Source: a virus. Taken from it: a stretch of 46,470 nucleotides of DNA. Position 1 is the first letter of the stretch. Each line of letters begins with the position of its first letter. The position numbers were made by a program, and so were the translations under genes. Positions 10,548-35,119 of the stretch are shown in pieces. The stretch spans positions 1 to 46,470 of the IMG/VR virus record IMGVR_UViG_3300030389_004074; one strand, 5' to 3'. Under the pieces are notes generated by a model that saw only the letters and a list, made by a program, of their open reading frames with translations, had not been told where the DNA came from and ran no database searches.

Positions 10548-10901
10548 ATGGCGGCAGGGTTTCATCATTTCATAATAGAGCAAGGGGCGACTTTCGGGCG
10601 CACTCTTACACTAAAGGACAGCAGCGACAGTCTAGTGAACCTGACTGGATACAGTGCTGCCGAAATGGACCTTCGCTACAACGCGGACGATAGTGCCGAA
10701 GTTCTAACACTTACAGTAGCAAACTCAAGAATTACGCTAGGTGGAGCGGCAGGGACTGTAGTTCTCACAATAACGGCATCTGACACAGCTTCTATGAGCG
10801 TGGGCGACGGGGTCTACGACATCAAGCTAACAGCAGGCGACGGTACGGTTTCTAGAATCATGGAGGGCACCTTCTCAGTAAGGGGCAGCGTGAGCAGATA
10901 A
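10548..10901 (+). CDS. Probable tail fibre-associated structural protein
   Basis: 117 residues with the pattern FIIEQGATFGRTLTLKD, LVNLTGYSAAEMDLRY and a Gly/Thr-rich beta C-terminus. Small proteins with QGA-x-F and LTGY-x-A motifs lie next to baseplate or fibre genes in many phages and may join the fibre to the virion. AAAGGA precedes the ATG. It shares its final A with the next ATG, so it is coupled to the giant fibre gene. Confidence 0.65.
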   Translation: MAAGFHHFIIEQGATFGRTLTLKDSSDSLVNLTGYSAAEMDLRYNADDSAEVLTLTVANSRITLGGAAGTVVLTITASDTASMSVGDGVYDIKLTAGDGTVSRIMEGTFSVRGSVSR

Positions 10902-13900
10902 TGGCAGTAAGCAAGATCACAGTCTCCGACGTAAGCGCCGTAAACACTATAACCGTATCGGATACGAACCAAATATCGGTAGTTACTGTAGGGATTCAGG
11001 GTCCGGGCGGACCAAACGCAATTCTTGGTCGTTCAATCAGAGAAGGTTACACTGCAGGTTCAAGCGATAACGGGGCAGGTATTATTTATGACCATGCCAA
11101 CGTTAGGTGGCTCTCAACGGTAGATTCTGACGCTTCAAGTCTTAACTTTAAGATACCGAACCTAACTTTCCTATCGGGTCAGACAGTAACTTCAATTCTT
11201 GATGAAGATAACATGGGCAGTAATAGTGCTACAGCACTTGCAACCCAACAATCAATCAAAGCGTATGTAGATGCCGAACTTACTTCACAAGATTTAGACT
11301 TTCAAGGGGATAGCGGAGGAGCTCTCTCAATAGACCTAGACTCGGAGACACTAGACATAGCGGGCGGAACCGGGATAGACACTAGCGGTTCAGGGAACAC
11401 TCTCACAGTAGCGATAGACAGCACGGTAGCGACCCTTACAGGGATTCAGACACTCACCAACAAGACTCTTACAAGTCCGGTCCTAAATTCGGTAGACATA
11501 AACGGAGGCGACATAGACTCCGCAACCACAATAAACAAGTCTCCGGTTATAACCCTAGGCGGAGACCTCTCGGGCTCCGTTACCTTAACAGAACTAGGAA
11601 ACGGAACGCTAACTGCAACAATAGTAGCGAACGCTGTAGCCTTAGGCACAGATACCACCGGAAACTACGTATCCACGATTTCTGCTGGAGAAGGAATAGA
11701 CGTAAGCGGCTCAGGCTCGGAGACCGCAACTGTAACTATATCGGCGGAAGACGCGACCGATTCTAACAAGGGCATAGCCTCCTTTGATTCAACAGACTTT
11801 GCGGTCAGTTCAGGCGCCGTAACATTGGTGCCAGAAAGAATCCAAGACCTAGTAGGCGCAATGGTGTCCAGCAACACGGAGAGCGGAATCTCTGTTACTT
11901 ACCAAGATAGCGACGGAACACTTGATTTCAACGCAGACGACTTCACTATATCCCTTGCAGGAGATTTATCTGGAAGCGTAACCATTTCCGATTTGGCGAG
12001 CGCTTCGTTGACTGCCACGATAGTTGCCAACTCCATAGCACTGGGAACTGACACAACGGGCAACTACGTTTCCGAGATTTCCGCAGGGGAAGGGATAGAT
12101 GTCTCCGGGAGCGGCTCTGAAACGGCAACCGTAACAATATCCGCAGAGGACGCTACGGCAAGCAATAAGGGTATCGCGAGTTTTGACTCTACAGACTTTA
12201 CAGTCTCTAGCGGCGCAGTAACGGTGAATGCAGAGAGAGTTCAGGATATTGTGGGGGCAATGGTCGGCTCAAACACAGAATCGGGCATATCAGTGACCTA
12301 TGAGGACTCCGACGGCACACTGGACTTCAACGTAGCAGACCCGGTAATCACTCTAAGCGGTGACGTATCCGGAAGCGCTACCATGACCAACCTAGGAGAC
12401 GTGACTATCTCCACGACCGTGCAGGCTAACTCTGTAGCTTTAGGGACCGACACTACCGGGAACTACGTACAGGACATAAGCGCCGGTGAGGGTATTGACG
12501 TATCTGGGAGCGGTAGCGAGACAGCCTCGGTTACTATAAGCGCGGAAGATGCTACAGACTCCAACAAAGGTATAGCTAGTTTTGACAGTACGGACTTCAC
12601 AGTAAGCTCAGGAGACGTAACTCTGAATGCCGAAAGGGTCCAAGATATCATCGGTGCAATGCTTTCAAGCAACACGGAAAACGGTATTTCAGTTACGTAT
12701 CAAGATTCAGACGGAACAATAGACTTTGACGTTAACGACCCTACGCTCACTTTCACGGGAGACGTCACGGGCTCCGGAACTATAACCGATCTTGGCAACA
12801 CCTCTATAGCACTGACGGTAGCCGCCAACAGCGTAGCTCTAGGCACGGACACTACCGGAAACTACGTTGCAACGATAGCGGACGCGGGCAACTCTAGGAT
12901 AACGGTCGCTAACTCAGGCAGCGAAACCGCAGCGGTTACTCTAGACATAGCGGACGATGCTATAGGTACAGATCAGATAGCAAATAATGCAGTGACACTC
13001 GGAACGCAATCTACCGGGAACTACGTAGCTACAGTAGCGGGAACAACCAACGAGATAGAAGTATCCGGGAGCGGCAGCGAGACAGCGGCTGTAACTATAG
13101 GGCTGCCCGACGACGTAACAATAGGAAACAACCTGGTAGTGACAGGCAACTTGACCGTAAACGGCACGACCACAACGATAAACACTACTAACCTGGACGT
13201 TGAGGACTCCACGATAAGATTCGCGAAGAACGCCACGACCCTTTCGGCTACTAACGGCGCTGGACTGGAATTCGGAGGCAGCTCAAGCAAGCCTACTATT
13301 CTCTGGAACAACTCGGACGGAAGGCTGGTAGCAAACAAAGTATTTGCTGCTACTAGCTTCGTAGGTGACGTAGCCGGGAACGCGACGACTGCCACGGCCT
13401 TAGAGACTGCGAGAACCATACACGGCGTTTCCTTTGACGGTTCGGCGAACATTGACCTGACCGAAGTGGTGCAAGACACTGTGGGCGCCATGTTCAGTTC
13501 TAACACTGAGACCGGAATCACAGCTACTTACCAAGACTCTGACGGCACGCTTGACCTAGTAATAGGTTCAGGAGACATAACCAACGCCATGCTCGCGGGC
13601 TCAATAGCTAACGATAAGCTAAGCAACTCCGCGATAACAGTTTCGGACGGAAGCAACTCAACAGCAACCTCTTTAGGAGGCACGATTACCTTCTCCGGAA
13701 CTTCAAACGAGGTAGAAGTAGCAGAGAGCTCCGGGACCATTACGGTAGGTCTGCCAAGCAGCGTAGACATAACAACCGATCTAAGCGTGAGCAACGTAGA
13801 CATAGCAACTGGCTCTATAGTCCTGAAAAACTCAGGCTCAAAGTCCAAAATAGATTTCTACTGCGAATCCTCTAATGCACACTATACGAGACTTGAAGCG

Positions 13901-16900
13901 GCAGCACATGCCTCGTACAGCGGAAACGTGACAGTCACACTACCGACCACCACCGGGACTTTAGCCCTCACTTCAAGCAACATTACTGGTAACGCTGCAA
14001 CCGCGACGGCCTTGCAGAACGCTAGGACTATTCATGGGGTCTCGTTTGACGGAACAGCGAACATAGATTTATCAGAGGTAATACAGGATACGGTCGGGGC
14101 GATGTTCTCTAGCAACACGGAGACAGGCATTGCTGCTAGTTATGAGGACGGTGACGGGACAATTGACTTGGTCATAGGCTCCGGTGTAATCACGAATGCG
14201 ATGCTTGCCGGGTCTATTTCAAACGACAAGCTCGCGGGGTCCATAGCGAACAGCAAGCTTGCGAACTCATCTATCACCGTAACGGACGGCAGTAACTCAA
14301 CCGCCACTGCTTTGGGCGGAACAATTACTTTCACGGCAGGCGAAGGTGTAGATGTCACAGAGTCTTCCGGGACAATCACAATCGCGGGAGAGGACGCAAC
14401 TTCAAGCAACAAGGGTATAGCCTCCTTCACAGGCGACTTTTCAGTATCTAGCGGTGCAGTATCATTAGGTGCCTCCGGGGTCTCAGCGGCGAGCTATGGC
14501 TCTGCTACGGCTATCCCGGTACTGGCTATAGACGCAAAGGGCAGAGTTACGTCTGCGAGTACGGCAAACATCTCTACTAGCTTCACGCTTTCCGACGGGA
14601 GCAACACCCAGACAGTCGCGGGCGGCGACACACTCACAGTTGCTGGCACGAGTAACGAGGTAGATGTCGCAGTTAGCGCAACTGATACACTAACCATAGG
14701 TCTTCCTAATGACGTTACAGTTTCAAACAATCTTACTGTCTCCGGGAACTTGGTCGTAACAGGAACAACAACACAGACCGGTTCAGTGGTAACGGACAAC
14801 AACTTCACGGGTCTTGCCAACGCTAATACCGGGAACAGCACTGACTTCGGATTCTACGGGAAGTACGTAGAGTCTAGCACTACAAAGTACGCGGGTATCT
14901 TCTACGACGCCTCCACCGACAATACTTTCAGGTTGTTCGTAGACACGCAGACTGTCCCCTCTACTACGGTTAACACTGGGGCTACAGGTTATGCGGCAGG
15001 TAATCTGGTAATAGGCGCACTTACTACTTCTGGAATTACTATTGGCAGTACTGCTGTAACTTCCACTGCGGCAGAGCTCAATATCTTAGACGGGGTAACT
15101 TCAACTGCGGCAGAACTAAATATCCTTGACGGAGTTACCTCTACAACAGCCGAGTTGAATATTCTTGACGGGGTAACGGCAACTGCCACAGAACTTAACA
15201 TCATGGACGGTAACACAAGTGCAAGTTCCACTACATTAGCTGATGCAGATAGATTGGTCGTGAATGATAACGGCACCATGAAACAAGTTGCCCTTACTGA
15301 TTTAGAAACTTATGTAGAAAGTGCTATAGATACTTTAGCTAACTTAACTGCTGTAGGCGCAGGAGGGCAAACTCTAGCTGTAACAGGAAATCAAACTTTA
15401 AGTGGTAATTTAACTGTTAATACTAATTCTTTCAAAGTAGATGCTTCAAATACCAGAATAGGTATTGGACAAGCCACACCAACAGTAGCTATAGACGCAG
15501 GCTCCAAGACCGATGCGATCTTACTTCCCAAAGGCACAACAGCACAAAGACCTACAGGTGCGGCAGGCCAGTTCAGGTACAACACAACACTAGGAAAGTT
15601 TGAGGGCTACACCTCGGAATGGGGCGAGATCGGCGGTGGTACTAGCACTAACACCTTTCAGGTGAATACTTACACAGGTGACGGAAGCACTACTGCCTTT
15701 ACCCTCTCCCAGGCTCCAGACAGCGAGGACAACATCATAGCCTTCATAGAGGGTGTGTATCAAAATCCGAATGATTTTATTCTGAATGGCACAACACTAA
15801 CCTTTGACGTAGCGCCCGCAAACGGCAGAAAGATAGTCGTCTACCACGTGAAAGGCGCGGTGGCGGGACAGAACCTCACGATCTCCACAATGACCGGTGA
15901 CGGCTCAGACACAACGCTTACGTTATCCATAGACCCGATTTCAGAGAACAACGTTCAGGTTTACATAGACGGTGTCTACCAGAACAAAGACACGTTCAGT
16001 GTCTCAGGGACCACCCTTACTTTCTCAGAGGCACCGCCAAACGGCTCTAAAGTAGAGGCCATGACTCTTACCCAGACCGACATCAATACCGCCACAATCC
16101 TTACCGATGCAGACGGAGATACCAAAGTTCAGGTAGAAGAAAGCTCAGATGAGGACAAGATAAGGTTTGATACAGGCGGAACGGAACGCATGGTTATTGA
16201 CTCTACAGGTGTTGGAATAGGACAAGTACCGACAAGAGATTTATCTTTACATGCAGGTGACGCTAGTAGTGTGTTTGCTCATTTTACTAATACGGATACA
16301 GGCACAACATCAAGTGACGGTGTAATTATTGGTTTAGGATCTTCAGAAGATTTAGTTATAAATAATCAAGAATCTAGCAAAAACATTATTATTGAAAACG
16401 GCGGCTCAGAGAGGATGCGTATTGATTCTTCAGGACGAGCAATGATTGGTACAACCGATGCAGGTTATCCTGATTATGGCGATAGCTTAACTCTTGGCGA
16501 TGTTGACGGCGGCGGCGGTAACTCTGGAATGACCATAAGAAGTGGCACATCAAGTTATGGTACTTTTTATTTTTCTGATGATACAGGAACAGCAGCAGGC
16601 ACTTACGCAGGAAAAATGCAATACAACCATAGTAATAATTCTTTGATATTTGCGACTAATAGCGTTGATAGATTCACTATAGACTCTTCTGGCAACGCTG
16701 TTTTTTCTGGCGCTACCATAACAGTTGGTGACGGTCATACTTTCGGCAACGGTGGAGGAGATAATCTACATATAGAAACAAGTGCAGGCGAAAACTTAGT
16801 TTTCAATGCAGCAGGTGGTATTACAGTTTTTCAAGGCGGTGGAACAGAAAATGCAAGAATTGATTCTACAGGTGCTTTGTTAGTAGGAACAACAAGTCAG

Positions 16901-17386
16901 ATAACAGCAAGCACAGAGGAATGCGTTCACATAAAAAATGGGGACGGAGCAGGGCAACTATTCCTTGATAATACTAGAAGTAGTGGAAGTCAATACATGG
17001 TTCAAATTCACAGATTAGGAACAAGAGTTGGCTCTATACAAACAACAACAACGACAACATCTTATCTTACAACTTCTGATTATAGAGTAAAAGAAAATGT
17101 TGATTATGAATTTAACGCTTTAGAAAGAGTAGCACAACTGAAACCTGCAAGGTTCAATTTTATAAAAGAACCTGATCTAATAGTTGATGGATTTTTAGCA
17201 CATGAGGTTTCTCCTGTAGTGCCACAAGCGGTAAGCGGAGAAAAAGATGCTGTTGATGAGGAAGGTAATCCTGATTTACAAGGTTTAGACCACAGTAAAT
17301 TAGTACCTTTACTCACAAAAGCAATACAAGAACAACAAGAACAGATAGAAGCAATGAAAAAAGAAATAGAGGAGTTAAAAGGATAA
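10901..17386 (+). CDS. Giant modular tail fibre with C-terminal S74 chaperone domain
   Basis: 2161 residues, low in Cys and very rich in Ser, Thr, Gly, Asn and Asp. In order: a short N-terminal segment with GIQGPGG; LATQQSIKAYVDAE near residue 120; four long repeats of about 132 residues (roughly 245-700) containing LGTDTTGNYV; a second repeat pair with ARTIHGVSFDG (roughly 845-1150); four 14-residue AELNILDGVT units (about 1388-1435); two strand-rich repeats with GDGSTTAFTLSQAP and DGVYQN; several VGIG-type modules; and a terminal peptidase S74 intramolecular chaperone starting at SDYRVKEN (residue 2059), expected to trimerise the fibre and cut itself off at that Ser. It binds the host surface. 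Base composition turns visibly AT-rich after about 16200, suggesting a swapped distal part. Confidence 0.9.
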   Translation: MAVSKITVSDVSAVNTITVSDTNQISVVTVGIQGPGGPNAILGRSIREGYTAGSSDNGAGIIYDHANVRWLSTVDSDASSLNFKIPNLTFLSGQTVTSILDEDNMGSNSATALATQQSIKAYVDAELTSQDLDFQGDSGGALSIDLDSETLDIAGGTGIDTSGSGNTLTVAIDSTVATLTGIQTLTNKTLTSPVLNSVDINGGDIDSATTINKSPVITLGGDLSGSVTLTELGNGTLTATIVANAVALGTDTTGNYVSTISAGEGIDVSGSGSETATVTISAEDATDSNKGIASFDSTDFAVSSGAVTLVPERIQDLVGAMVSSNTESGISVTYQDSDGTLDFNADDFTISLAGDLSGSVTISDLASASLTATIVANSIALGTDTTGNYVSEISAGEGIDVSGSGSETATVTISAEDATASNKGIASFDSTDFTVSSGAVTVNAERVQDIVGAMVGSNTESGISVTYEDSDGTLDFNVADPVITLSGDVSGSATMTNLGDVTISTTVQANSVALGTDTTGNYVQDISAGEGIDVSGSGSETASVTISAEDATDSNKGIASFDSTDFTVSSGDVTLNAERVQDIIGAMLSSNTENGISVTYQDSDGTIDFDVNDPTLTFTGDVTGSGTITDLGNTSIALTVAANSVALGTDTTGNYVATIADAGNSRITVANSGSETAAVTLDIADDAIGTDQIANNAVTLGTQSTGNYVATVAGTTNEIEVSGSGSETAAVTIGLPDDVTIGNNLVVTGNLTVNGTTTTINTTNLDVEDSTIRFAKNATTLSATNGAGLEFGGSSSKPTILWNNSDGRLVANKVFAATSFVGDVAGNATTATALETARTIHGVSFDGSANIDLTEVVQDTVGAMFSSNTETGITATYQDSDGTLDLVIGSGDITNAMLAGSIANDKLSNSAITVSDGSNSTATSLGGTITFSGTSNEVEVAESSGTITVGLPSSVDITTDLSVSNVDIATGSIVLKNSGSKSKIDFYCESSNAHYTRLEAAAHASYSGNVTVTLPTTTGTLALTSSNITGNAATATALQNARTIHGVSFDGTANIDLSEVIQDTVGAMFSSNTETGIAASYEDGDGTIDLVIGSGVITNAMLAGSISNDKLAGSIANSKLANSSITVTDGSNSTATALGGTITFTAGEGVDVTESSGTITIAGEDATSSNKGIASFTGDFSVSSGAVSLGASGVSAASYGSATAIPVLAIDAKGRVTSASTANISTSFTLSDGSNTQTVAGGDTLTVAGTSNEVDVAVSATDTLTIGLPNDVTVSNNLTVSGNLVVTGTTTQTGSVVTDNNFTGLANANTGNSTDFGFYGKYVESSTTKYAGIFYDASTDNTFRLFVDTQTVPSTTVNTGATGYAAGNLVIGALTTSGITIGSTAVTSTAAELNILDGVTSTAAELNILDGVTSTTAELNILDGVTATATELNIMDGNTSASSTTLADADRLVVNDNGTMKQVALTDLETYVESAIDTLANLTAVGAGGQTLAVTGNQTLSGNLTVNTNSFKVDASNTRIGIGQATPTVAIDAGSKTDAILLPKGTTAQRPTGAAGQFRYNTTLGKFEGYTSEWGEIGGGTSTNTFQVNTYTGDGSTTAFTLSQAPDSEDNIIAFIEGVYQNPNDFILNGTTLTFDVAPANGRKIVVYHVKGAVAGQNLTISTMTGDGSDTTLTLSIDPISENNVQVYIDGVYQNKDTFSVSGTTLTFSEAPPNGSKVEAMTLTQTDINTATILTDADGDTKVQVEESSDEDKIRFDTGGTERMVIDSTGVGIGQVPTRDLSLHAGDASSVFAHFTNTDTGTTSSDGVIIGLGSSEDLVINNQESSKNIIIENGGSERMRIDSSGRAMIGTTDAGYPDYGDSLTLGDVDGGGGNSGMTIRSGTSSYGTFYFSDDTGTAAGTYAGKMQYNHSNNSLIFATNSVDRFTIDSSGNAVFSGATITVGDGHTFGNGGGDNLHIETSAGENLVFNAAGGITVFQGGGTENARIDSTGALLVGTTSQITASTEECVHIKNGDGAGQLFLDNTRSSGSQYMVQIHRLGTRVGSIQTTTTTTSYLTTSDYRVKENVDYEFNALERVAQLKPARFNFIKEPDLIVDGFLAHEVSPVVPQAVSGEKDAVDEEGNPDLQGLDHSKLVPLLTKAIQEQQEQIEAMKKEIEELKG
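11638..12950 (+). repeat. Four protein-level tandem repeats of about 132 codons in the giant fibre gene
   Basis: LGTDTTGNYV recurs at about 11640, 12040, 12440 and 12835, spacing close to 400 bases. Between copies a 40-residue block (SAGEGIDVSGSG through FDSTDF) is nearly invariant in protein in the first three copies, yet synonymous positions differ at most codons, including Ser switching between TCN and AGY. The repeat is thus conserved in protein and scrambled in DNA. Confidence 0.85.
15055..15215 (+). repeat. Four short tandem AELNILDGVT repeats
   Basis: Four consecutive 14-residue units (TSTAAELNILDGV with small changes, the last ending NIMDGN) are encoded in 42-base steps. This motif is common in phage fibre shafts. 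The four DNA copies again differ at many synonymous positions. Confidence 0.85.
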
Positions 17387-17387
17387 T

Positions 17388-18560
17388 ATGGCAAACACAA
17401 AGATACCCGTAGAACTGTCAAGTACGCCTGGAATCGTAGATAACAGCGATGCTACGGCTATCACGATTGACAGTAGTGAACGAGTAGGTATAGGGCTTAC
17501 AAGTCCTGCCTCTCCTTTACACGTAAGAGTAGCAAGTGACGCGAACTTTGAGGTAGAAAATGCAAGTGGCTCAGTAAGACTTGCCGCACTAAATGACGCA
17601 AGATCAGTAAATGTAAATATGGAATTTACCTCTACTCATTTTGGTTTCTTGACAGGAAATTTAGGATTAGGCACAACAACAATAAACTCAGGTACGTTAG
17701 GTACTGCAAATAAATTTCTAGAGGTTGCAGCAGGAACAGCAAATGGCTCAGGAACTATCGTTCTTTCAAGAACAACAAATGGGAATAACAATGAGATAGG
17801 TGGTTTAAGATTTGTTAATTCTGATAATGCAGACGATGACGGTTTAGACTCTGACGGAAAGTTAGTCGCTGCGGTATCTGCAAGGTCAGTAACCTCTGAC
17901 TCAAATGCAGGAGATGACTCAGGTGCAGCTTTACATTTTTATACAAAACCAGAAGCAGGTAACTATGGAGAAAGAATGAAAATTGCTTCTGACGGCTATA
18001 TAAGTATGACAAGGTCGGCAAGTGAATACGGACTACAGCTTAAATCAACAGGAACACGCTCTGGTCTTGTTGTGATGAAGCCAGGCACAGATACAATCAT
18101 GGGCTCGGTATTGTTAATAGGCTCAAATGAATACTTCAGTCTTGGCACTGCTAGTTATTATCATGTCCAATGTTTTCAAAATGGTCGTACTCATATAGTT
18201 GGTGATTACTCTTTTGGTGGAAGCAATGTTTCAGACAGAGATATGAAAGAAAATATTATTGAAGTTGAAGGCACATCTTTAGAAAAAATATTGAAGCTCC
18301 CTATAAAGTCATTCAAATATAAAGAAACAGATACAGAAGCTCACCATATTTCTGGCAATGTAGAAGAAAGAAAACAGAAAACAGGTTTTATTGCGCAAGA
18401 GGTTCAACCGCATCTTCCTGATGTAGTAACTGGAACAGACGGAAAAGGGGATATGGCTTTAGACCCTATGGGCATTACTGCACATTTAGTACGTGCACTC
18501 CAAGAACAACAAACAATAATAGACGACTTAAAGTCTAGGATAGAAACACTAGAGGGATAA
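17388..18560 (+). CDS. Second tail fibre, S74 type
   Basis: 390 residues. The N-terminus (DNSDATAITIDSSERVGIG, residues 18-36) is a module shared with the third fibre gene, followed by a variable Gly/Ser-rich body, and from residue 282 an S74 chaperone domain (SDRDMKEN, then KTGFIAQEVQPHLPDVV, ending in a coiled coil). The S74 domain is expected to cleave itself after trimerisation. It starts two bases after the giant fibre stop with AAAGGA before the ATG. The DNA is AT-richer than the head genes. Confidence 0.88.
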   Translation: MANTKIPVELSSTPGIVDNSDATAITIDSSERVGIGLTSPASPLHVRVASDANFEVENASGSVRLAALNDARSVNVNMEFTSTHFGFLTGNLGLGTTTINSGTLGTANKFLEVAAGTANGSGTIVLSRTTNGNNNEIGGLRFVNSDNADDDGLDSDGKLVAAVSARSVTSDSNAGDDSGAALHFYTKPEAGNYGERMKIASDGYISMTRSASEYGLQLKSTGTRSGLVVMKPGTDTIMGSVLLIGSNEYFSLGTASYYHVQCFQNGRTHIVGDYSFGGSNVSDRDMKENIIEVEGTSLEKILKLPIKSFKYKETDTEAHHISGNVEERKQKTGFIAQEVQPHLPDVVTGTDGKGDMALDPMGITAHLVRALQEQQTIIDDLKSRIETLEG

Positions 18561-26561: not shown

Positions 26562-26984
26562 ATGAAAAAACTACCTCAGTGGGAAATACGGCTTTTTGAC
26601 TTCATAAGCAGTAACAAGGATAAGTCTTTCAAGTGGGGTAAGTGGGACTGCTGCATCTTCGTGATAGAGGCGGTAAGGGCTATGACCGAAACCGAGATTT
26701 TGAAGCCTTCTTGGAACAACAAGCTAGAGGCGCTTTTCTTCATCAAGGAGAACGGTAAGACGATAAATTCTGCTACGACAAAGTTTCTGAAAAAGTCAGG
26801 ACTAAAGACTATAGATAAGAATTTCATTACTGCGGGAGACGTAGTCTTACTCAAGGATATTCATAACAATAACGAACAGATCATGGGAATCTGTACCGGG
26901 AACCTAATTGCCTGCGTAAGCGAAGAAGGAATCTCTTATAGAGAAAACCAGAGCGCGGTTAAGGTTTGGAGAATAAATGGCTGA
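26562..26984 (+). CDS. Tail tip peptidase-like protein (DUF6950/NlpC-type)
   Basis: 140 residues. FKWGKWDCCIFVIEA near residue 25 fits the active-site region of the DUF6950 / NlpC-P60-like tail proteins (Cys nucleophile near residue 30), which open peptidoglycan during DNA entry or remain as structural relics. The usual catalytic His region could be near GICTGNLIACVS but is not clear. It starts right after the previous stop and overlaps the J-like gene by eight bases. Confidence 0.75.
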   Translation: MKKLPQWEIRLFDFISSNKDKSFKWGKWDCCIFVIEAVRAMTETEILKPSWNNKLEALFFIKENGKTINSATTKFLKKSGLKTIDKNFITAGDVVLLKDIHNNNEQIMGICTGNLIACVSEEGISYRENQSAVKVWRING

Positions 26985-29964
26985 CGCAGTAAAGGCAGCT
27001 TTAGTCGCAGCAGCAATAGCTGGAATCATAGTAGCTACAGGGGGAGCAGCGGGTTTTATCGGAGGCTTCGCTGCTTTTGGAGCGACTCTAGGTGTAGGGG
27101 CAGCAGGTGGTTTCATTGCATTCAGCGCAATGATGGCGTTTGTCTCTACCGGTCTGAATATGATGTTGGCACCCTCTATACCGAGTGCTACTAACCAGAA
27201 CTTTGGTCAAAAGGTCTCAGCTAGGTCTCCGAATGCGCCCAGAAAAATAGTCTATGGACAATGCAGAGTCGGTGGAACCATAACCCATATAGAAACTACC
27301 GGGACCACTAACGACGTGCTTCATCTTTTCATAGCGGTTGCAGGGCACACTATCAATAGTTTGGAAAAGGTTATAATAAACGAGACAGAGCTTACTTTGG
27401 GCTCCGACACTTCCTCTGCGACTGTAAACAGCACTACGGTCCATACAGTAACCCACACAAACTTTACGAATACAGAAAACGAGCAGAACTTCGGCTCTGG
27501 GCGATTGGTAAGATTCACTTTCAATGACGGTTCGCAAACTACCAAAAATGCTTTCGCCCAGGCACAACTAGGCTCTACTTCAGTTCCTAATACTCACGTT
27601 TTCAAAGACGTTGCTTACGTCTACATGCAATGCGTCTACGACCCTGAATTCCTAGCAAACGTGCCAAACATAAGTTTCGTTGTTAAGGGAAAGAATGTTT
27701 TTGACCCACGGACAAATGCAGCCGCTAATTCCGATCTACAGAGGTCTAACCCTGCTCTTATAATCAGGGATTTCATAACGGACACAACTTACGGACTAAA
27801 GGCCACGTCGGACGAGATAAACGATACTACTTCTGCAGGCGGTTTCGCCGCCGCCGCAAACACCTGCGACCAAGACGTTACACTAGCGGACGGAAGCACA
27901 ACTGAGACAAGGTACACTGCAAATGGCTTCTCGGACATGGCAGCCGACGGAGAGGACATTATCGGCGGACTACTCAGCGCCATGGCAGGAAGCCTTACTT
28001 ACGCAAACGGCAAGTTCAACGTTTTTGCAGGGGCGAACCAGAGCCCGTCTCTTACGATAACTGACGACGATCTTTTGCAGGCGCCAACGATAACTACGAA
28101 AACAGCTACCGGTGAGATGTTCAACACAGTCAAATCTGCTTTTGTAGACTCTGCCAACAAATTCATTGCTACTGATGCACCCGTTTTCCAGAGCAGCACC
28201 TTTCTTACTCAGGATACTCCTAGCGGTGAATCCTCCGCAAACTTTGTGAAAACAATGGAATTAAAACTACCTTTCACAACGACACATACTGCCGCTCAGC
28301 GCTTGGGCAAAATCGCCTTGTTGCACAACCGCCAGACTATATCTATAAAACTGATAGTTCCCCTAGAGTTTATGCAACTACAGGCTAAGGACTATGTCCG
28401 TGTCACCAATGAAAGAATGGGCTTTGATAGTAAGTTGTTTGAAGTGCTTACAGTAGGCTTTCAGATAATCGGAGAAACAGACGAGCAGTTTCTTGCCTGC
28501 GAATTGGATTTAAAGGAGATAGAATCCGCGGTCTATGACTTTGCTACAAACGAGTACTCAACGCCTATAACACAGGGCACAGTCGTCAATACCGGTGATA
28601 ACTCGGTACCTACCCCTTCTAGCGCAAGTGCTTCTCAAAGTGCAACTGTAGAAGGCACAACAACAAAAATAAATATAACTGTTACTTGGACAAACTCTAC
28701 AGAGATTGGAATACAGGGAACAGAGGTGCAGTATAAATTAAGTGGGGATAGTAATTATAGTTCTTTGCTTGTAGGTAAATCTCAATCTGTAGCAACTATT
28801 CCAAACGTTACTGTAGGTCAAACTTACAACATAAGATTAAGACATTTTACTTACGATAATGTTTATTCAAGCGTAGTTGCTCTAAGTGATCTTACAATTA
28901 CAGCAGTTACAGCAATTCCAGCTACACCGACTAATTTAGCAGTTGCTTCTGATAATCCTTTATTGATAGGGGTAAGTTGGACGAACCCAAGTAATACTGA
29001 CCTTCGTGCAGTAAAGGTTTATAGAAAGACGGTAGATAACACACCGACAAGCGACAGTGACGGACTTGTGGAAACTATTTATGGTGAGCCTGGTCAGAAA
29101 TCCTTGTTCTTTTTTGGTAAACAAGACGGTCTTTCTGCAGGCACAACATATTTCTTTTGGTTAAGAGCAGTAAATCACTCTGGGGTAAATTCTGCCTTTA
29201 CATCTTCGGTTTCTGGTTCATTTAAGAATATTGTTGCAGGAGATGTAGATACCACGTTCAGCAACACCATTGCCTTCAAGTCAAACCTTACGGACGGTGC
29301 AACTGTTATATCAGGAAGTAACATACAGACAGGCACACTTAATGCAGATAGAATCGGCACAGGAACTCTGAATGGAAGCAATGTAACTGTTACAAACCTT
29401 AGTGCTTCTAACATTACAGGGGGAACACTTTCTGTAAATAGGATAGGGGCAAATAGTCTTAATATAGCAAGTAAGGGTGTTCTAGGTTCTGCAGGAAACA
29501 TTAAGTCTGGTCAAGGTCAAATTCAACAAACTACTAACAGCACAGGGGCAGTAAATCAGTTTTTTGGTTCTGGTTCTCTGACTTCATTTTTTGCAAGTAG
29601 TCCTTTTCATAAATCTGGAAGCACATCTTTGGGAGAGATTGCCTCGGTATCTTTTTCAACACCAAGCAACACAGCAACTTATAACTTCTTAGGTTTTCAT
29701 GGTGTGACTGGAACTTTTAATGGAGATGAAGAAAAATTAATTGTAATCTCAATTCAAAATACAAGCGGAACAGTTATTGCCGATTCATTCCAATTTGTAA
29801 ATAACGCACAAGCAACCGATATATTTGGTATTGCACTCACACAATCTTTGTCAGGTGGCAATAACTTTGTAGCTCGTTTATATGCAGGTACTAAAAACGT
29901 GGACACGAACGGCGGTGTACTGAGAATAACAGGAACAGTAATGGCTTTTGGTTTAGGATTGTAA
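26977..29964 (+). CDS. Tail tip attachment protein, lambda J / GTA gp15-like
   Basis: 995 residues. A Gly/Ala-rich hydrophobic N-terminus (10-62) is followed by SARSPNAPRKIVYGQCRVGG (near 81-100), the signature of J-type hub proteins, then a strand-rich hub domain with TDTTYGLKA and GGLLSAMAGSLTYANG, fibronectin type III repeats (about 545-750), and a variable C-terminus with GTGTLNGSNVTVTNLSASN. It forms the tip and contacts the receptor. From about 28600 the DNA becomes AT-rich like the fibre cassette, suggesting exchange of the distal part. Confidence 0.9.
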   Translation: MADAVKAALVAAAIAGIIVATGGAAGFIGGFAAFGATLGVGAAGGFIAFSAMMAFVSTGLNMMLAPSIPSATNQNFGQKVSARSPNAPRKIVYGQCRVGGTITHIETTGTTNDVLHLFIAVAGHTINSLEKVIINETELTLGSDTSSATVNSTTVHTVTHTNFTNTENEQNFGSGRLVRFTFNDGSQTTKNAFAQAQLGSTSVPNTHVFKDVAYVYMQCVYDPEFLANVPNISFVVKGKNVFDPRTNAAANSDLQRSNPALIIRDFITDTTYGLKATSDEINDTTSAGGFAAAANTCDQDVTLADGSTTETRYTANGFSDMAADGEDIIGGLLSAMAGSLTYANGKFNVFAGANQSPSLTITDDDLLQAPTITTKTATGEMFNTVKSAFVDSANKFIATDAPVFQSSTFLTQDTPSGESSANFVKTMELKLPFTTTHTAAQRLGKIALLHNRQTISIKLIVPLEFMQLQAKDYVRVTNERMGFDSKLFEVLTVGFQIIGETDEQFLACELDLKEIESAVYDFATNEYSTPITQGTVVNTGDNSVPTPSSASASQSATVEGTTTKINITVTWTNSTEIGIQGTEVQYKLSGDSNYSSLLVGKSQSVATIPNVTVGQTYNIRLRHFTYDNVYSSVVALSDLTITAVTAIPATPTNLAVASDNPLLIGVSWTNPSNTDLRAVKVYRKTVDNTPTSDSDGLVETIYGEPGQKSLFFFGKQDGLSAGTTYFFWLRAVNHSGVNSAFTSSVSGSFKNIVAGDVDTTFSNTIAFKSNLTDGATVISGSNIQTGTLNADRIGTGTLNGSNVTVTNLSASNITGGTLSVNRIGANSLNIASKGVLGSAGNIKSGQGQIQQTTNSTGAVNQFFGSGSLTSFFASSPFHKSGSTSLGEIASVSFSTPSNTATYNFLGFHGVTGTFNGDEEKLIVISIQNTSGTVIADSFQFVNNAQATDIFGIALTQSLSGGNNFVARLYAGTKNVDTNGGVLRITGTVMAFGLGL

Positions 29965-29965
29965 T

Positions 29966-30196
29966 ATGGCAATTTACACAGACCTTCACCCACCCGTAGA
30001 CACTCTTACTTTTCTAAGGGAATCAAGGGCGGACTTACTCAAACAGTCAGATTGGACGCAATCTGCAGATAGTCCTTTATCTGATAGCAAAAAGGCGGAA
30101 TGGGCGAGTTACAGGCAAGAGCTTCGTGACTTGCCTTCTAAATATTCAAACTCAGACTCTATAGAGGATATTGTCTGGCCCACGAGACCCACATAA
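29966..30196 (+). CDS. Small tail assembly protein (Phage_tail_APC-like)
   Basis: 76 residues. RESRADLLKQSDWTQSAD, then WASYRQELRDLPSKY and a Trp-Pro end, match the short phage tail assembly chaperone-like family with the R-x2-L-x2-SDWTQ and YRQ-x-LRD-x-P motifs. It sits one base after the J-like gene, and its stop overlaps the next start. Confidence 0.85.
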   Translation: MAIYTDLHPPVDTLTFLRESRADLLKQSDWTQSADSPLSDSKKAEWASYRQELRDLPSKYSNSDSIEDIVWPTRPT

Positions 30197-30546
30197 TGGA
30201 CGACATAGTAAGACTTATAACAGAACTTGGTTTCCCGGTAGCCGCCGCATTAGGACTCGGTATATTTGTCTGGAAGCTCATAAATCGTATAATTGACGGC
30301 ATGGAATCTAAGATAGACGTCGTTGACGATAAGGTTAATGAGCAATTGAAAGCTATGGAAGACAGATTGCAGACAAAGCTAGACGCCCAGCAAGGAATAT
30401 TGGTTGCGCTAATTGATAGAGTCAGAAGCGTTGATAACGAAATAATTAGGCAAGATACATTACTTAAAACCATGTTAGGTGTTCCCCAATTAGTGCAGAA
30501 GGATAAGATCGCGAAGGCAGATAGAGATGACCAGAGAAAAGATTAA
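30196..30546 (+). CDS. Membrane-anchored coiled-coil protein, holin candidate
   Basis: 116 residues: a short amphipathic start (MDDIVRLITELGFP), one hydrophobic helix (VAAALGLGIFVWKLI, about 15-30), then a long coiled coil (31-95) and a basic tail. This layout recurs in marine phages between tail tip and lysis genes and is often left as hypothetical or holin-like. It overlaps the CsgF gene by 20 bases, which ties the curli cassette to the tail operon. Confidence 0.7.
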   Translation: MDDIVRLITELGFPVAAALGLGIFVWKLINRIIDGMESKIDVVDDKVNEQLKAMEDRLQTKLDAQQGILVALIDRVRSVDNEIIRQDTLLKTMLGVPQLVQKDKIAKADRDDQRKD

Positions 30547-31069
30547 GAGAAAAAGGGGCAGACCCTCAAAAGCGGAGTTGAAGGCAAGGAAGAGGGCAGA
30601 AGATAAGGACCTGGCTCTCCTTATTTGCATGTATGTAGGCTTGTTTATATTTATCGGTATCGGTGTCAATTATGCGCTTGCAGACGAGATGTCCTTCAAG
30701 TTCAAGAGTCCTAGTTTCAGTGGTTTGAATACATCACAACATTATCTAACCATTGAGAATCAAGAGTTCTCAAGAAACAAGACGTTGATAGAAGAAAAGA
30801 AAGCAATAACGGAACAGTTGGCAAGAGAAGCAAACAATACAACTCTAGCTAGATTTATCAGGAACTTAGAATCAAGAGTTTATGCGCAATTATCTAGACA
30901 GTTAGTTGAAAACCTTTTCGGGGAGACTGCTTCGTCTTCCGGGACGCTTACTCTGGAAGGAAACCTAATTGAATACTCCTCGGACGAAACTTCTATTACC
31001 CTAAAGATCACTGATGAAGAAGGACAGACTACGACTATCACTTTCCCTATTGATAGTTTTGCTTTCTAG
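30527..31069 (+). CDS. csgF: CsgF-like curli assembly protein
   Basis: After a basic N-terminus (KRKRGRPSKAELKARKR) comes a hydrophobic segment (29-51) with a likely signal cleavage after YALA, then MSFKFKSPSFSG, the diagnostic CsgF N-terminal motif that inserts into the CsgG pore. A helical middle (LARFIRNLESRVYAQLSRQL) and a strand-rich end (SSDETSITLKITDEEGQ) also match CsgF. In curli systems CsgF sits on the cell surface, capping CsgG and attaching the amyloid nucleator. The 28-residue basic extension before the signal is not usual; an internal ATG at 30629 would remove it. It overlaps the CsgG gene by 56 bases. Confidence 0.88.
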   Translation: MTREKIKRKRGRPSKAELKARKRAEDKDLALLICMYVGLFIFIGIGVNYALADEMSFKFKSPSFSGLNTSQHYLTIENQEFSRNKTLIEEKKAITEQLAREANNTTLARFIRNLESRVYAQLSRQLVENLFGETASSSGTLTLEGNLIEYSSDETSITLKITDEEGQTTTITFPIDSFAF

Positions 31070-31817
31070 TTGCGGTACCATACCTACCGAGAGGCTTACT
31101 AACTTTGAGATAACCAAGGTTCCTCATGTCAATGCGATAATAAATACAGAACTCTTAGAGGTTAAAGAACCCAACGAGAAACTTATAGTAGCCGTCTACC
31201 CTACAGGATTCACAGACCAGACTGGGCAAAGGCGCTCAAACAGTACGTATGCCTCTTTTAGTTCCGCTATCACGCAAGCGCCATACAATCTACTGATTCG
31301 GTCCCTGCACGAGGCGGGCATGGGTAAGTTTTTCACTGTGGTTGAAAGAGTCTCCCTAGAAAACCTAACAAAGGAAAGGCAGATAATAAGAAGCACTAGA
31401 AAGGATTTTGATGAAGAGCAAAAGCTTAAACCGTTGCTTTTTGCCGGCATGCTCTTTGAGGGCGGGGTCGTTGCATACGAGAGCAATGTACGCTCTGGCG
31501 GGAACGGCGCAAGAGCCCTAGGGATAGGCGTAAGCACTCAGTACCGTCAGGATACGGTCACCGTCAGCCTGAGACTGGTCTCAGTTCTTTCCGGCAGAAT
31601 ATTGGTGGAGACTACAGTAACTAAGACCATACTTAGCACTAGCACGAACGGCGATTTATTCAGGTTCGTGAAAAACAACACCGAGCTTATTGAAATTGAG
31701 TCCGGAAACGTGGAAAATGAGTCTGTAACTATTGCACTGCAATCAGCAATTGAATACGCTGTTCTCAGAATCATAGAGAAGGGACATAGAAAAAAACTAT
31801 GGAGTTTCAAGGAATGA
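31014..31817 (+). CDS. csgG: CsgG-like outer membrane curli secretion channel
   Basis: 267 residues. A lipoprotein signal ends in LLSSC (Cys20 lipidated). The core follows CsgG closely: AVYPTGFTDQTGQ, SFSSAITQAP (constriction loop), FTVVERVSLENLTKERQIIR, AYESNVRSGGNGARALGIG, TQYRQDTVTVSLRLVSV, then a TKTIL segment and FRFV. CsgG forms a nonameric outer membrane pore for unfolded curli subunits. By eye the constriction Phe is kept (F82), while the positions of Tyr51 and Asn55 in the E. coli channel hold Ser. No CsgE gene is seen. The ATG lies inside the CsgF gene. Confidence 0.93.
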   Translation: MKKDRLRLSLSLLIVLLSSCGTIPTERLTNFEITKVPHVNAIINTELLEVKEPNEKLIVAVYPTGFTDQTGQRRSNSTYASFSSAITQAPYNLLIRSLHEAGMGKFFTVVERVSLENLTKERQIIRSTRKDFDEEQKLKPLLFAGMLFEGGVVAYESNVRSGGNGARALGIGVSTQYRQDTVTVSLRLVSVLSGRILVETTVTKTILSTSTNGDLFRFVKNNTELIEIESGNVENESVTIALQSAIEYAVLRIIEKGHRKKLWSFKE

Positions 31818-32530
31818 AGAGAATAACAGTAATATTTTTTATATCTTTTTTTTCGGGGTACCTGTTTATCGCAGACAACGAGGTATCTATTGACCAGAGC
31901 GGAGCCACTTTCAACTTAGATGTTGAACAACTAGGCGCGGGTAACCTGGTCGGTGGTTCTGACGCCGTAGCAGGAACAATGACCGCTCTTGATCTAGACG
32001 GGGCTACGATGACTCTTGACATAAACCAGATCGGTGATGCCAACAAGTTTAGAGGGGATATAACAGCAGACACTTTCACGGGTTTCTTTGAATTTGACGG
32101 TAACTCTAATGTTTTTGACGTACAGATAGACCCGAACAACACCTTCGGGGCAGACAGTTCTAATCTTCAAGTGAACATCACCGGTAATAGTAATGACATG
32201 TCTCTAGACCAAGCCGTTACATCTATGGCTAGTTCTCTAGACTTAGACTGGACAATACAGGGAGATACAAACACCATTGACGCCGACATAGATATTGACG
32301 GGGCTACTAACTACATGAACATAGACGGAGACGACAATACCGTAAATTACAACGGAGACGGTTTCGCGGGCGGTTATTTTCATTTAACACATGACGGAAA
32401 CAACAGAGAAATTACAGTTACACAGGCATCTACACAGGATAACGATTGGCTCAAGATTACTTCTGACGGTAATAATGGTACTTTCTGTATCATTCAAAAC
32501 GACCAAGGCACAAGCACAAGCTGTCCTTGA
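31814..32530 (+). CDS. Secreted curlin-like repeat protein
   Basis: A signal peptide (MKRITVIFFISFFSGYLFIA) precedes about 215 residues of short strand repeats. Several fit the curlin pattern (hydrophobic-x-hydrophobic-x-Q-x-G-x2-N): FNLDVEQLGAGN, MTLDINQIGDAN, LDWTIQGDTN, MNIDGDDN and ITVTQAS. The protein is rich in Asp, Asn, Gly and Thr and has two Cys near its end. Following CsgF and CsgG, it is the likely cargo, an amyloid-forming subunit or nucleator; amyloid formation itself is inference. The start at 31814 has GGAG nine bases before; 31799 is the alternative. Its last 140 bases are also read in the next gene's frame. Confidence 0.82.
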   Translation: MKRITVIFFISFFSGYLFIADNEVSIDQSGATFNLDVEQLGAGNLVGGSDAVAGTMTALDLDGATMTLDINQIGDANKFRGDITADTFTGFFEFDGNSNVFDVQIDPNNTFGADSSNLQVNITGNSNDMSLDQAVTSMASSLDLDWTIQGDTNTIDADIDIDGATNYMNIDGDDNTVNYNGDGFAGGYFHLTHDGNNREITVTQASTQDNDWLKITSDGNNGTFCIIQNDQGTSTSCP

Positions 32531-33563
32531 TATTGGTTCTGTAGAGGAGGTATCGGGCTACGCCCAGATAAAAAGAGACGGTACTTTTGAAGTAACGCAG
32601 AACTTCAACATTCAATCTTACGACCAGGCGCAAACAGAGGCGGGTCGTATGGGTATACGCTTTATAGACGACACCACCATAAAAATAACAGAGCACTCTC
32701 AGGTAATAATAGACGAGTTCGTTTTTGACCCAAATCCCGATAACTCTAAACTCGCTGTTAGTTTCGTGAAAGGGACCGCTAGATTCACGAGCGGGTTACT
32801 AGGCAAGATAAACAAGAAGAACATGGTCGTAAAAACTAATAGCGCGGTCGTAGGCATAAGGGGTACGGATTTCACGGTAACGGTTGAGGCAGACACGGGA
32901 GAGAGTCTTTTCATTCTCTTGCCGAACCCGGACGGAACTGCTTCCGGGGAAATAGTGGTAAGCACTCTGTTTGGCGAAGTAGTCCTAAACCAGCCCTACC
33001 AGGCTACGACGACCACTACCTTTGAATCTCCGCCCTCCAAGCCTGTTATCTTAGACCTGACCCTAGAGTTCATAGATAACATGCTGATAGTCAATCCGCC
33101 TAGGAAAGTAAAAGAAGAAGAAGAAGCCATTGACTCACGCCAAGGCGACATTCTTGACTTTGACGAGTTGGAATACGACGCACTGGCAGAGGACGAACTT
33201 GAGAACCGGGAGCTTGAGTTCACAGAGCTTGATTACGACGCCCTTAACGTAAATTTTCTTGAAGACCTTCTGGACATAATAAATGAACTAGACCGGGTAG
33301 AGGAAGAGGAAGAACTTAACAGAGTAGCTACTTCGGTAGACGTGAAGGGAACTAACGTCGGGCAAGACACCAGTACCCAGATAACAACGGTAGTCTCCGG
33401 ACAGACCATAAGCATGAAGAGAGAAGTGAGCGACAACGCTAACATAGTAATAGACAGCAACAGTTCGTATACCGTGATACTTGAACAGGACGGGATAATG
33501 AACGAGGTCAAGGTAAACGGGGGCAGCTCTTCTACTATTGTCATTAGACAGGGAAGCGGATAA
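32391..33563 (+). CDS. Secreted FecR-domain protein with acidic repeats and curlin-like end
   Basis: A signal sequence (RLLLTVIMVLSVSF then KAQAQA) starts within the curlin gene. Residues about 45-200 form a FecR domain: GYAQIKRDG, MGIRFIDDTTIKITEHSQ, SFVKGTARFTSG and the VVGIRGTDFTVTVE motif. An acidic segment follows (about 240-310) with repeats of LEYDAL / LDYDAL type. The last 70 residues hold strands such as VILEQDGIMNEVKVNGG and IVIRQGSG that resemble curlin units, so it may co-assemble with the upstream protein. The start is uncertain: ATG 32391 gives a complete signal but no clear ribosome binding site; ATG 32475 cuts the hydrophobic core. Confidence 0.8.
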   Translation: MTETTEKLQLHRHLHRITIGSRLLLTVIMVLSVSFKTTKAQAQAVLDIGSVEEVSGYAQIKRDGTFEVTQNFNIQSYDQAQTEAGRMGIRFIDDTTIKITEHSQVIIDEFVFDPNPDNSKLAVSFVKGTARFTSGLLGKINKKNMVVKTNSAVVGIRGTDFTVTVEADTGESLFILLPNPDGTASGEIVVSTLFGEVVLNQPYQATTTTTFESPPSKPVILDLTLEFIDNMLIVNPPRKVKEEEEAIDSRQGDILDFDELEYDALAEDELENRELEFTELDYDALNVNFLEDLLDIINELDRVEEEEELNRVATSVDVKGTNVGQDTSTQITTVVSGQTISMKREVSDNANIVIDSNSSYTVILEQDGIMNEVKVNGGSSSTIVIRQGSG

Positions 33564-33574
33564 GATGTCTCAGC

Positions 33575-33982
33575 ATGGGACTAAAAATATCTTTAGTTTT
33601 AGGCGTTCTTCTGCTTGCCACAGCTAGTGGCTCTGCATTCTACATAAAATACCTTCTGAACCAGAACGCAATCCTAGCCGCAAACCAGCAACAGCTAGAA
33701 ACCAAAATCTCCGAGCAAAACGACTCCATAAAGAGCTACCTAAAAAAACAGAACGAGGTTTCCAAGACGCTTAACGCCATGGAGATAGAGAAGAACAAGG
33801 CGCTTAGAGAGAGCCAAGAGCTACGGAACAAGTTCGCAAGGCACGATCTAGACAATCTTGCTCTGATGAAGCCGGGTCTAATAGAAAAGCGCGTAAACAA
33901 GGGCACCCAGCAGGTAATGAACGACCTGGTAGCCCTAACCAACCCAAACCAGTTTGATGAAGAAGATAGTACTGATAATTAG
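33575..33982 (+). CDS. Inner membrane spanin (Rz-like)
   Basis: 135 residues: a single N-terminal membrane anchor (ISLVLGVLLLATASGSAFYI, 4-23), then a periplasmic coiled coil (about 30-95), then LMKPGLIEKRVNKGTQQVMNDL, a motif I know from Rz-like proteins of marine phages. Spanins fuse inner and outer membranes at lysis. The 3' end overlaps the lipoprotein gene, the nested layout typical of Rz/Rz1 pairs. Confidence 0.82.
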   Translation: MGLKISLVLGVLLLATASGSAFYIKYLLNQNAILAANQQQLETKISEQNDSIKSYLKKQNEVSKTLNAMEIEKNKALRESQELRNKFARHDLDNLALMKPGLIEKRVNKGTQQVMNDLVALTNPNQFDEEDSTDN

Positions 33983-34313
33983 CCTTTTCTGCGTGTCTTG
34001 CGCCTCTATACCGAGGGCAACTCCTGTAGACGTCAGGACGATTGCGGAAAGACCGCCGATGTACCACCCGCCGCTCCCGGTAGAGCTTCAAATGCTTGCA
34101 GTGAAGTTTGAGGTACTTACTCCGGAAATCATGGGCGAATACCTAAGACTAATAGAGTCAGGAGATGAGCAGGAGAGGGCTTACTACTCCCTAACTACTC
34201 AGCAGTACGAGAACCTCTCAAACAACATGGCGGAACTAAAGAGATACTTGAACAACATACTTCTGATAGTCCAGTACTACAGAGAATACGACGAGGTGAA
34301 AAATGGCGACTAA
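33957..34313 (+). CDS. Outer membrane lipoprotein, putative o-spanin (Rz1-like)
   Basis: 118 residues. MKKIVLIISLFCVSC is a lipoprotein signal; the Cys is followed by Ala-Ser, which allows outer membrane sorting. The mature part begins with a Pro-rich stretch (AERPPMYHPPLPVE), as in Rz1, and ends in helices. It overlaps the Rz-like gene by 26 bases. Longer than lambda Rz1, which is common outside coliphages. ATG at 33957 follows a TTG that a longer call would use. Confidence 0.78.
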   Translation: MKKIVLIISLFCVSCASIPRATPVDVRTIAERPPMYHPPLPVELQMLAVKFEVLTPEIMGEYLRLIESGDEQERAYYSLTTQQYENLSNNMAELKRYLNNILLIVQYYREYDEVKNGD

Positions 34314-34674
34314 ACAACCCTTCTATTACAACTGCACTCTAGACAGAGTGATAGACGGAGACACTATAGACGTGCACATAGACCTAGGCTTTGAGGTCCA
34401 GCTTACAAAGCAGCGGGTAAGGCTCGCGGGCATAGACACTCCGGAATCTAGAACTAGGAATCTAGAGGAGAAGAAACTGGGGCTTGCTGCGAAAGAGAGG
34501 CTTAAGGAGCTCTGCGGCGAGGAATTGCAACTACTATCATTGGGTAAAGGTAAATATGGCAGGATTCTGGGAATACCTCACACGAAAGAAGGAAAAGACA
34601 TCTGTCAAATCCTTATCGGAGAAGGCCACGCAGTTGAGTACTGGGGTGGCAAGAAGACTAAGGTTTGGGCGTAA
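34303..34674 (+). CDS. Thermonuclease (SNase-fold) family nuclease
   Basis: 123 residues. VIDGDTIDVHIDLGF, RVRLAGIDTPESR and GKGKYGRILGIP carry the staphylococcal nuclease motifs: the Asp pair binding Ca, the catalytic Arg in RLAGIDTPE and the second Arg in YGRILG. No signal peptide, so it acts in the cytoplasm, perhaps on host DNA or RNA, or is freed at lysis. It sits between spanins and lysozyme, overlapping the former by 11 bases. Confidence 0.9.
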   Translation: MATKQPFYYNCTLDRVIDGDTIDVHIDLGFEVQLTKQRVRLAGIDTPESRTRNLEEKKLGLAAKERLKELCGEELQLLSLGKGKYGRILGIPHTKEGKDICQILIGEGHAVEYWGGKKTKVWA

Positions 34675-34675
34675 G

Positions 34676-35119
34676 ATGAGGACTTCGGAAGAGGGAATAG
34701 CCCTACTTAAGAAGTTTGAGGGCTGCGAACTAAGGGCTTATCAGGATAGCGTAGGCGTTTGGACCATTGGCTACGGGCATACTAAGAACGTTAAGGAAGG
34801 AATGGAGATCACCAAAGAGGAGGCAGAGGTAATGCTCAAGGAAGAACTCCCGGAATACGAGGATTACGTGGATAAGCTGGTTGAGATACCCTTAAGCCAG
34901 AACGAGTTTGACGCTCTTGTCTGCTGGGTCTACAACCTCGGACCTACGAACCTAGCGAGCTCTACCCTTCTAAAGGTTCTTAACAAAGGCGACAAAGACG
35001 GAGTTCCGTCACAGATAAGAAGGTGGAACAAGGCTGGTGGCGAGGTTCTCAACGGCCTAGTAAGGAGAAGAAACGCCGAGGCTCTGCTTTTTGAAGGTAA
35101 GGACTGGTACGATATCTAA
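34676..35119 (+). CDS. Lysozyme, GH24 endolysin
   Basis: 147 residues of the T4/P22-type lysozyme family: LLKKFEGCELRAYQD with catalytic Glu near residue 14, SVGVWTIGYGHTKNV with the Asp/Thr region, then FDALVCWVYNLGP and VRRRNAEALLFEG. It cleaves peptidoglycan at lysis. No signal or SAR anchor, so it needs a holin. The frame is open upstream to 34484, but the ATG one base after the SNase stop gives the normal family N-terminus. Confidence 0.93.
   Translation: MRTSEEGIALLKKFEGCELRAYQDSVGVWTIGYGHTKNVKEGMEITKEEAEVMLKEELPEYEDYVDKLVEIPLSQNEFDALVCWVYNLGPTNLASSTLLKVLNKGDKDGVPSQIRRWNKAGGEVLNGLVRRRNAEALLFEGKDWYDI

Follow-up and report, generated by a model that had tools for sequence, protein, structure and literature searches.

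A 46.5-kb virus record (IMGVR_UViG_3300030389_004074, 46,470 nucleotides, analysed over its whole length and called the window below) carries overlapping genes for CsgF, CsgG, a curlin-type repeat protein and a secreted FecR-domain protein, which together would constitute a reduced type VIII (curli) secretion-assembly cassette in the late region of a marine siphovirus. The best-supported mechanism, and in our judgement a rather probable one, is that a curlin-like fibre is exported and displayed just before lysis, with the FecR protein as an exported partner. This kind of viral gene set has been known since 2020–2022 from phages of SAR11 and OM43 bacteria; new here are the siphovirus carrier, the repeated adjacency to spanin genes, the missing cyclase, a short upstream gene (orf116) that lacks a kinase domain, and the secreted, PupR-fold FecR protein. 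ORF positions, Pfam and structure matches agree on the four overlapping genes that the original prediction placed at 30527–33563. The overlaps run head to tail and comprise 56 nt between csgF and csgG, 19 nt between csgG and the repeat gene, and 140 nt between the repeat gene and fecR.

The CsgF, CsgG and FecR proteins all score above the curated Pfam cut-offs, with 63.5 bits against 25.8 for CsgF and 41.4 bits against 24 for the FecR domain. Residues 7–265 of CsgG match the solved E. coli CsgG in a nearly end-to-end alignment (E 1.3e-38), and the lipobox LLSSC places the lipid-bearing cysteine at position 20. This lipobox and the other motifs quoted in the original prediction, AYESNVRSGG, TKTIL and MSFKFKSPSFSG, are all found in the window proteins. 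CsgF has a basic N-terminal extension and a signal sequence, with a mature start placed by eye near DEMSFKFKSPSFSG, at approximately nt 30683; the pore-docking start is kept, as seen from comparison with the corresponding GTMTFQFRNPNFGG of E. coli.

The repeat protein has a signal peptide, all-beta repeats and two conserved C-terminal cysteines. From sequence and modelling we assign it at the family level to the curlins, because relatives pass the Pfam Curlin_rpt cut-off of 20.7 bits (L061 with 21.8 bits and Melnitz with 26.0 bits), because a profile comparison links its family to the canonical second curlin of myophages (97.7% probability, E 1.5e-12), and because the top viral structure matches of its model (BFVD) are proteins named "Curlin associated" (probability 1.00). 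The AlphaFold model (pLDDT 87.1, pTM 0.85) consists entirely of beta structure, and strand pairs recur in its second half at intervals of about 24 residues. When proteins were scanned with a matrix made from ten E. coli CsgA/CsgB repeats and scored against shuffled versions of themselves, 97% of 31 diverse relatives of the repeat protein beat their own shuffles at p ≤ 0.05, 27 at the same N-terminal place, and the window protein gave p 0.04. Of the curlin-type Q-x-G-x2-N repeats of the original prediction, the window protein itself has only two exact copies, and it stays under the Pfam cut-off; its curlin identity holds at the level of the family, in its relatives, profile and fold. In the second curlin of myophages (HTVC008M, L012:8501-9823, and relatives), variable N-terminal heads precede the curlin repeats. 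A PA14 domain was identified only in the head of the HTVC008M protein; from their sequences, it is as if different binding heads had been swapped onto a common fibre.

Co-occurrence of the cargo gene with csgGF, a check proposed with the original prediction, was determined among the best-matching relatives, so that the figures describe the window's viral family and not all viruses. csgF, csgG and the curlin gene lie upstream of fecR in all 39 FecR-anchored loci, counted only where at least 3 kb of upstream sequence was present. In the CsgG-anchored loci with room, csgF is present in 59/59, and the curlin gene and fecR follow csgG in 76/76. The prediction of export machinery with a linked cargo is thus supported by this universal co-occurrence in the sampled relatives as well as by family models and fold. 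All four genes are under strong purifying selection, with dN/dS values of 0.01–0.05 wherever dS was unsaturated and could be estimated. csgF, csgG, the repeat gene and fecR are 81–95% identical where the neighboring Rz is only 57–66% identical, which together with the low dN/dS indicates that the cargo is retained no less firmly than the pore. Relatives that carry the tail tip gene J have the fixed order J, (chaperone), orf116, csgF, csgG, curlin, fecR, (cyclase), Rz, Rz1, SNase and lysin, the cyclase standing ahead of Rz in some of them; in an alternative arrangement SNase comes first, followed by the cassette and the lysis genes. Rz lies within ~400 nt of fecR in 51 loci and after the cyclase in 13, and a scan of myo-type loci placed Rz directly upstream of the cassette in 11. 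In the viral CsgG tree the phage proteins form one group apart from E. coli and five alphaproteobacterial sequences, with a myophage branch and the window's own branch. The window capsid protein is shared by two of the 20 carrier records tested, at 88% and 56% identity.

The FecR protein consists of a signal peptide (identified by eye), a FecR beta domain, an acidic linker with helices and a C-terminal beta segment (pLDDT about 72). In a predicted-structure search the FecR domain fold matches the PupR cell-surface signaling domain with a probability of 1.00. A FecR-type anti-sigma or iron regulator was rejected in view of the signal peptide at the start and the missing cytoplasmic half, with only the FecR domain being matched; neither an ECF sigma factor nor a TonB receptor was among the scanned proteins, although no search was aimed at either. 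The C-terminal segment is reminiscent of curlin repeats and of how E. coli CsgB ends: across close relatives it carries Q-D-G-x2-N and ends in I-x-I-x-Q, in the proposed pattern Y-x-V-x-L-x-Q-D-G-x2-N-x-V-x-V ... I-x-I-x-Q, and the myophage versions likewise end in strand-Q motifs. The curlin-matrix scan of the window FecR protein was not significant (p 0.20) and had its top-scoring segment inside the FecR domain, not in the tail; when the tail was compared with phage curlins as profiles, the probability was only 8.9% (E 0.0037). A curlin-like tail on this protein is suggestive only. It could nevertheless be imagined that the PupR-like domain, acidic helical linker and curlin-like tail make the FecR protein a new curli component that replaces CsgB as nucleator and anchor, the phages having thus built a self-contained fibre system tied to their lysis genes; we regard this proposal as doubtful. 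The FecR signal peptide (window 32391-32530) is read in a frame different from that of the curlin gene, whose conserved di-cysteine end is encoded by the same nucleotides, and similar overlaps of the two genes occur in relatives (median 113 nt when the most upstream start codon is taken).

The short gene orf116 encodes an N-terminal transmembrane segment followed by a coiled coil, and no HisKA/HATPase kinase domain was found in it or its relatives with Pfam and PHROG. The family is present, in one or two copies, in 38/39 FecR-anchored and 57/59 CsgG-anchored loci with room. Position, size and copy number make it probable that the "histidine kinase" of PMC9599517 is orf116 with its paralogue. 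The orf116 protein is 100% identical between the window (30196-30546), L004:1398-1745 and L011:4141-4488, whereas the adjacent csgF of L004 is only 81% identical; this is probably a recent recombination patch.

In the proposed mechanism, CsgG would form a pore in the outer membrane, with CsgF seated at the outside opening, and the curlin-type protein would cross the inner membrane by Sec, leave through CsgG and, at the cell surface, fold or polymerise into a beta-solenoid fibre resembling curlin. The FecR-domain protein may act as an exported envelope partner of this fibre (anchor, nucleator or plug) and not as an iron regulator. Since the cassette genes run directly into the spanins and endolysin, the infected cell would have its surface remodelled just ahead of lysis. 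The benefit would most plausibly be the aggregation of neighboring hosts or the blocking of competing phages; weakening of the envelope may also be considered. The secretion of an amyloid or a pore before lysis had been proposed in the original prediction, and we infer the same, with gene position supporting late expression.

Several observations weigh against this mechanism. Late expression is read from gene position only, and there is no known host for the window virus. The window repeat protein alone does not reach the Pfam curlin cut-off (its best local match has E 0.04), and a PDB fold search with its model gave no convincing match and no solved curlin structure, so that the fold comparison proposed at the outset succeeded for CsgG, with E. 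coli CsgG structures, and for the repeat protein among viral models, but not against a solved curlin. The cassette has only one curlin, with no second curlin or CsgB nucleator found in it. As had been predicted, CsgE is not visible, with zero matches at E ≤ 10, and neither CsgC nor CsgD was seen in the window. The missing CsgE does not disqualify the cassette from the type VIII systems, because CsgE is also absent from published phage modules and alphaproteobacterial systems (PMC9599517). Finally, no clumping of infected OM43 cells was seen by the Melnitz authors (PMC9004378).

The main rival is an aid to lysis, in which the CsgG-CsgF pore permeabilises the outer membrane or times lysis, with the curlin and FecR proteins as plug or gate. 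The adjacency of Rz/Rz1 in several arrangements, the lack of a CsgE gate and the published "pinholin/gated secretin" idea (PMC9004378) are consistent with such a role. A pore used for lysis, however, would not require CsgF or a conserved curlin and FecR protein, yet all three were retained in every sampled locus; the window already encodes a complete pair of spanins and an endolysin; and in HTVC008M the cassette adjoins the tape-measure gene, the 12.7 kb read showing no annotated spanin. We therefore consider assisted lysis unlikely. The conserved secreted curlin and CsgF are also left unexplained if CsgG imports nutrients or cofactors during infection, as proposed in PMC7029224 and PMC9599517. 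A pore without a CsgE gate would suit uptake, but the location beside lysis genes suggests expression too late for it, making an uptake channel highly improbable.

The location of the cassette immediately after J and the tail assembly chaperone, in the window and in relatives, might also indicate that the curlin and FecR proteins are virion parts serving as tail adhesins. This is the least probable of the alternatives, as all four proteins have signal peptides, CsgG and CsgF would be pointless, and the cassette lies away from J in SNase-first and myo-type loci. A signaling module, in which FecR and a CHASE2 cyclase sense the envelope and control the cassette or host second messengers, corresponds to the regulator view of PMC9599517. 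It can draw on the PupR surface-signaling fold, the cyclase following fecR in many relatives, FecR beside CHASE2 cyclase-type proteins in several bacterial loci and FecR beside a CHASE2 kinase in biofilm operons (PMC5192318). Yet the window record has no CHASE2 protein, many relatives run from fecR straight into Rz, and the FecR protein has a signal peptide and lacks the cytoplasmic anti-sigma half, so that signaling appears quite unlikely here.

Among 385 genomes of one alphaproteobacterial class, close CsgG homologues were found in five. All five loci have an adjoining csgF and curlin genes nearby, indicating that a pore-plus-curlin unit is the cellular norm, whereas neither FecR, orf116 nor a cyclase lies within ~7 kb of csgG in any of them. 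Conversely, FecR stands beside CHASE2 cyclase-like genes in several bacterial loci with no csgG nearby, and no link of FecR to csgGF was found among cellular FecR relatives or in the five csgGF loci from the 385 genomes. The viral cassette thus has the appearance of a curli core joined to a FecR(-CHASE2) pair. A csgG on a 1.5-kb record of Salmonella phage S.Kent 1-2-1 (L014, OR851715) was set aside, being nearly identical to E. coli csgG and probably host contamination. The viral cassette also occurs on four GTDB contigs (L164-L167) with the labels Maricaulis, Neomarinimicrobiota, Pelagibacter and Planctomycetaceae; a cellular origin was rejected for these contigs of metagenome-assembled genomes, which are most likely phage contigs in bins.

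csgF and csgG were reported in pelagimyophages, with sibling capture proposed (PMC7029224), and the order HK-CsgF-CsgG-CsgA/B-FecR(-CsgA/B-AC) was described in podo- and myo-type pelagiphages as a type VIII secretion system (T8SS) module that is found ocean-wide, with proposed transfer between phage families and metatranscript evidence for the pelagiphage versions (PMC9599517). GenBank annotates "CsgB" in HTVC008M and a "curlin associated repeat protein" with a "FecR domain protein" in Melnitz. The original prediction that a linked curlin-like cargo and FecR protein had gone unreported is contradicted by these annotations and by PMC9599517. In the literature searched, coverage of which was incomplete, no siphovirus carrier is described, the published carriers being myo- and podo-type. 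The pelagiphage module (HTVC008M, HTVC023P-type podoviruses) shares with the window the series of short gene(s), csgF, csgG, curlin and fecR and the lack of csgE, csgC and csgD. In contrast to it, the window is a siphovirus with no second curlin and no CHASE2 cyclase, its cassette abuts Rz/Rz1, and its CsgG is 44% identical to that of HTVC008M. A downstream adenylate cyclase is frequent but not universal in viral T8SS modules and is missing here. Melnitz has csgF, csgG, the curlin repeat protein and the FecR protein in the same order, with an extra second curlin and a cyclase that the window lacks; its authors described the pore, proposed a role in lysis and called csgA/csgB absent (PMC9004378), discussing only the pore although the record annotates curlin repeats. 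Bacterial type VIII systems (E. coli csgBAC-csgDEFG; alphaproteobacterial csgFG-curlin) have the CsgG pore, CsgF and curlin cargo in common with the window, which differs in lacking CsgE, CsgC and CsgD and in the FecR protein and orf116 that are constant in the viral cassette. FecR/PupR regulators and the published LysM-FecR/CHASE2-kinase biofilm operons (PMC5192318) share the FecR domain with its PupR-type fold, in contrast to which the window protein is secreted, lacks a cytoplasmic half and has a conserved C-terminal beta segment.

The features of the region are listed in Table 1. The gene content (head genes of the HK97 type, tape measure protein, tail tip J resembling that of lambda, spanins, endolysin) marks the window virus as a lambda/HK97-like marine siphovirus. 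The five overlapping cassette genes, orf116 included, sit between J with the tail assembly chaperone and the Rz/Rz1 pair, which bears out the predicted location between tail tip and spanins. The true endolysin start is probably downstream of the ORF start. A search of the window record for a CHASE2 protein was negative, and fecR is followed by Rz instead of a cyclase. Terminator-like sites and promoter counts equal the chance level; the lack of surplus terminators, like the gene overlaps, counts in favour of the proposed mechanism. Rfam and tRNA scans gave no matches. Between capsid and head-tail connector genes, positions 10901-17386 encode a fibre-like protein of 2161 aa that ends in an S74 endosialidase-type chaperone, and a second S74 protein follows directly at 17388-18560, an unusual location for tail fibres.

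Table 1. Cassette genes and their neighbors in the window
Feature	Position	Strand	Matches and remarks
Tail tip / central fibre J	26977..29964	+	phrog_5616 E 5.1e-72, phrog_31 E 6.8e-51; siphovirus context
orf116, small protein, constant upstream cassette member	30196..30546	+	phrog_18771 (unknown function) E 1.2e-16
CsgF homologue	30527..31069	+	Pfam CsgF E 2.9e-17; phrog_35372 E 4.9e-39
CsgG homologue, predicted outer-membrane lipoprotein pore	31014..31817	+	Pfam CsgG E 5.7e-48; E. coli CsgG structures
Curlin-type repeat protein, candidate cargo	31799..32530	+	Profile comparison, Pfam matches of relatives, predicted structure
Secreted FecR-domain protein	32391..33563	+	Pfam FecR E 2e-10; phrog_37870 E 1.1e-64; PupR-like fold
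Rz-like inner-membrane spanin	33575..33982	+	phrog_739 E 2.4e-13
Rz1-like outer-membrane spanin	33954..34313	+	phrog_812 E 3e-14
Endolysin	34484..35119	+	phrog_7 E 7.5e-65 from residue 38

The window cassette represents a compact version of the viral system, with five genes, one curlin and no cyclase. The published labels "histidine kinase" and "iron-dependent regulator" are called into question by the short gene and the FecR protein described here. The known SAR11 and OM43 hosts lack the secretion system that phages of these abundant ocean bacteria repeatedly carry under strong selection, and the siphovirus carrier, the inseparable pore, cargo and FecR protein, and the repeated spanin adjacency argue that the members work together as one unit at a late stage of infection.

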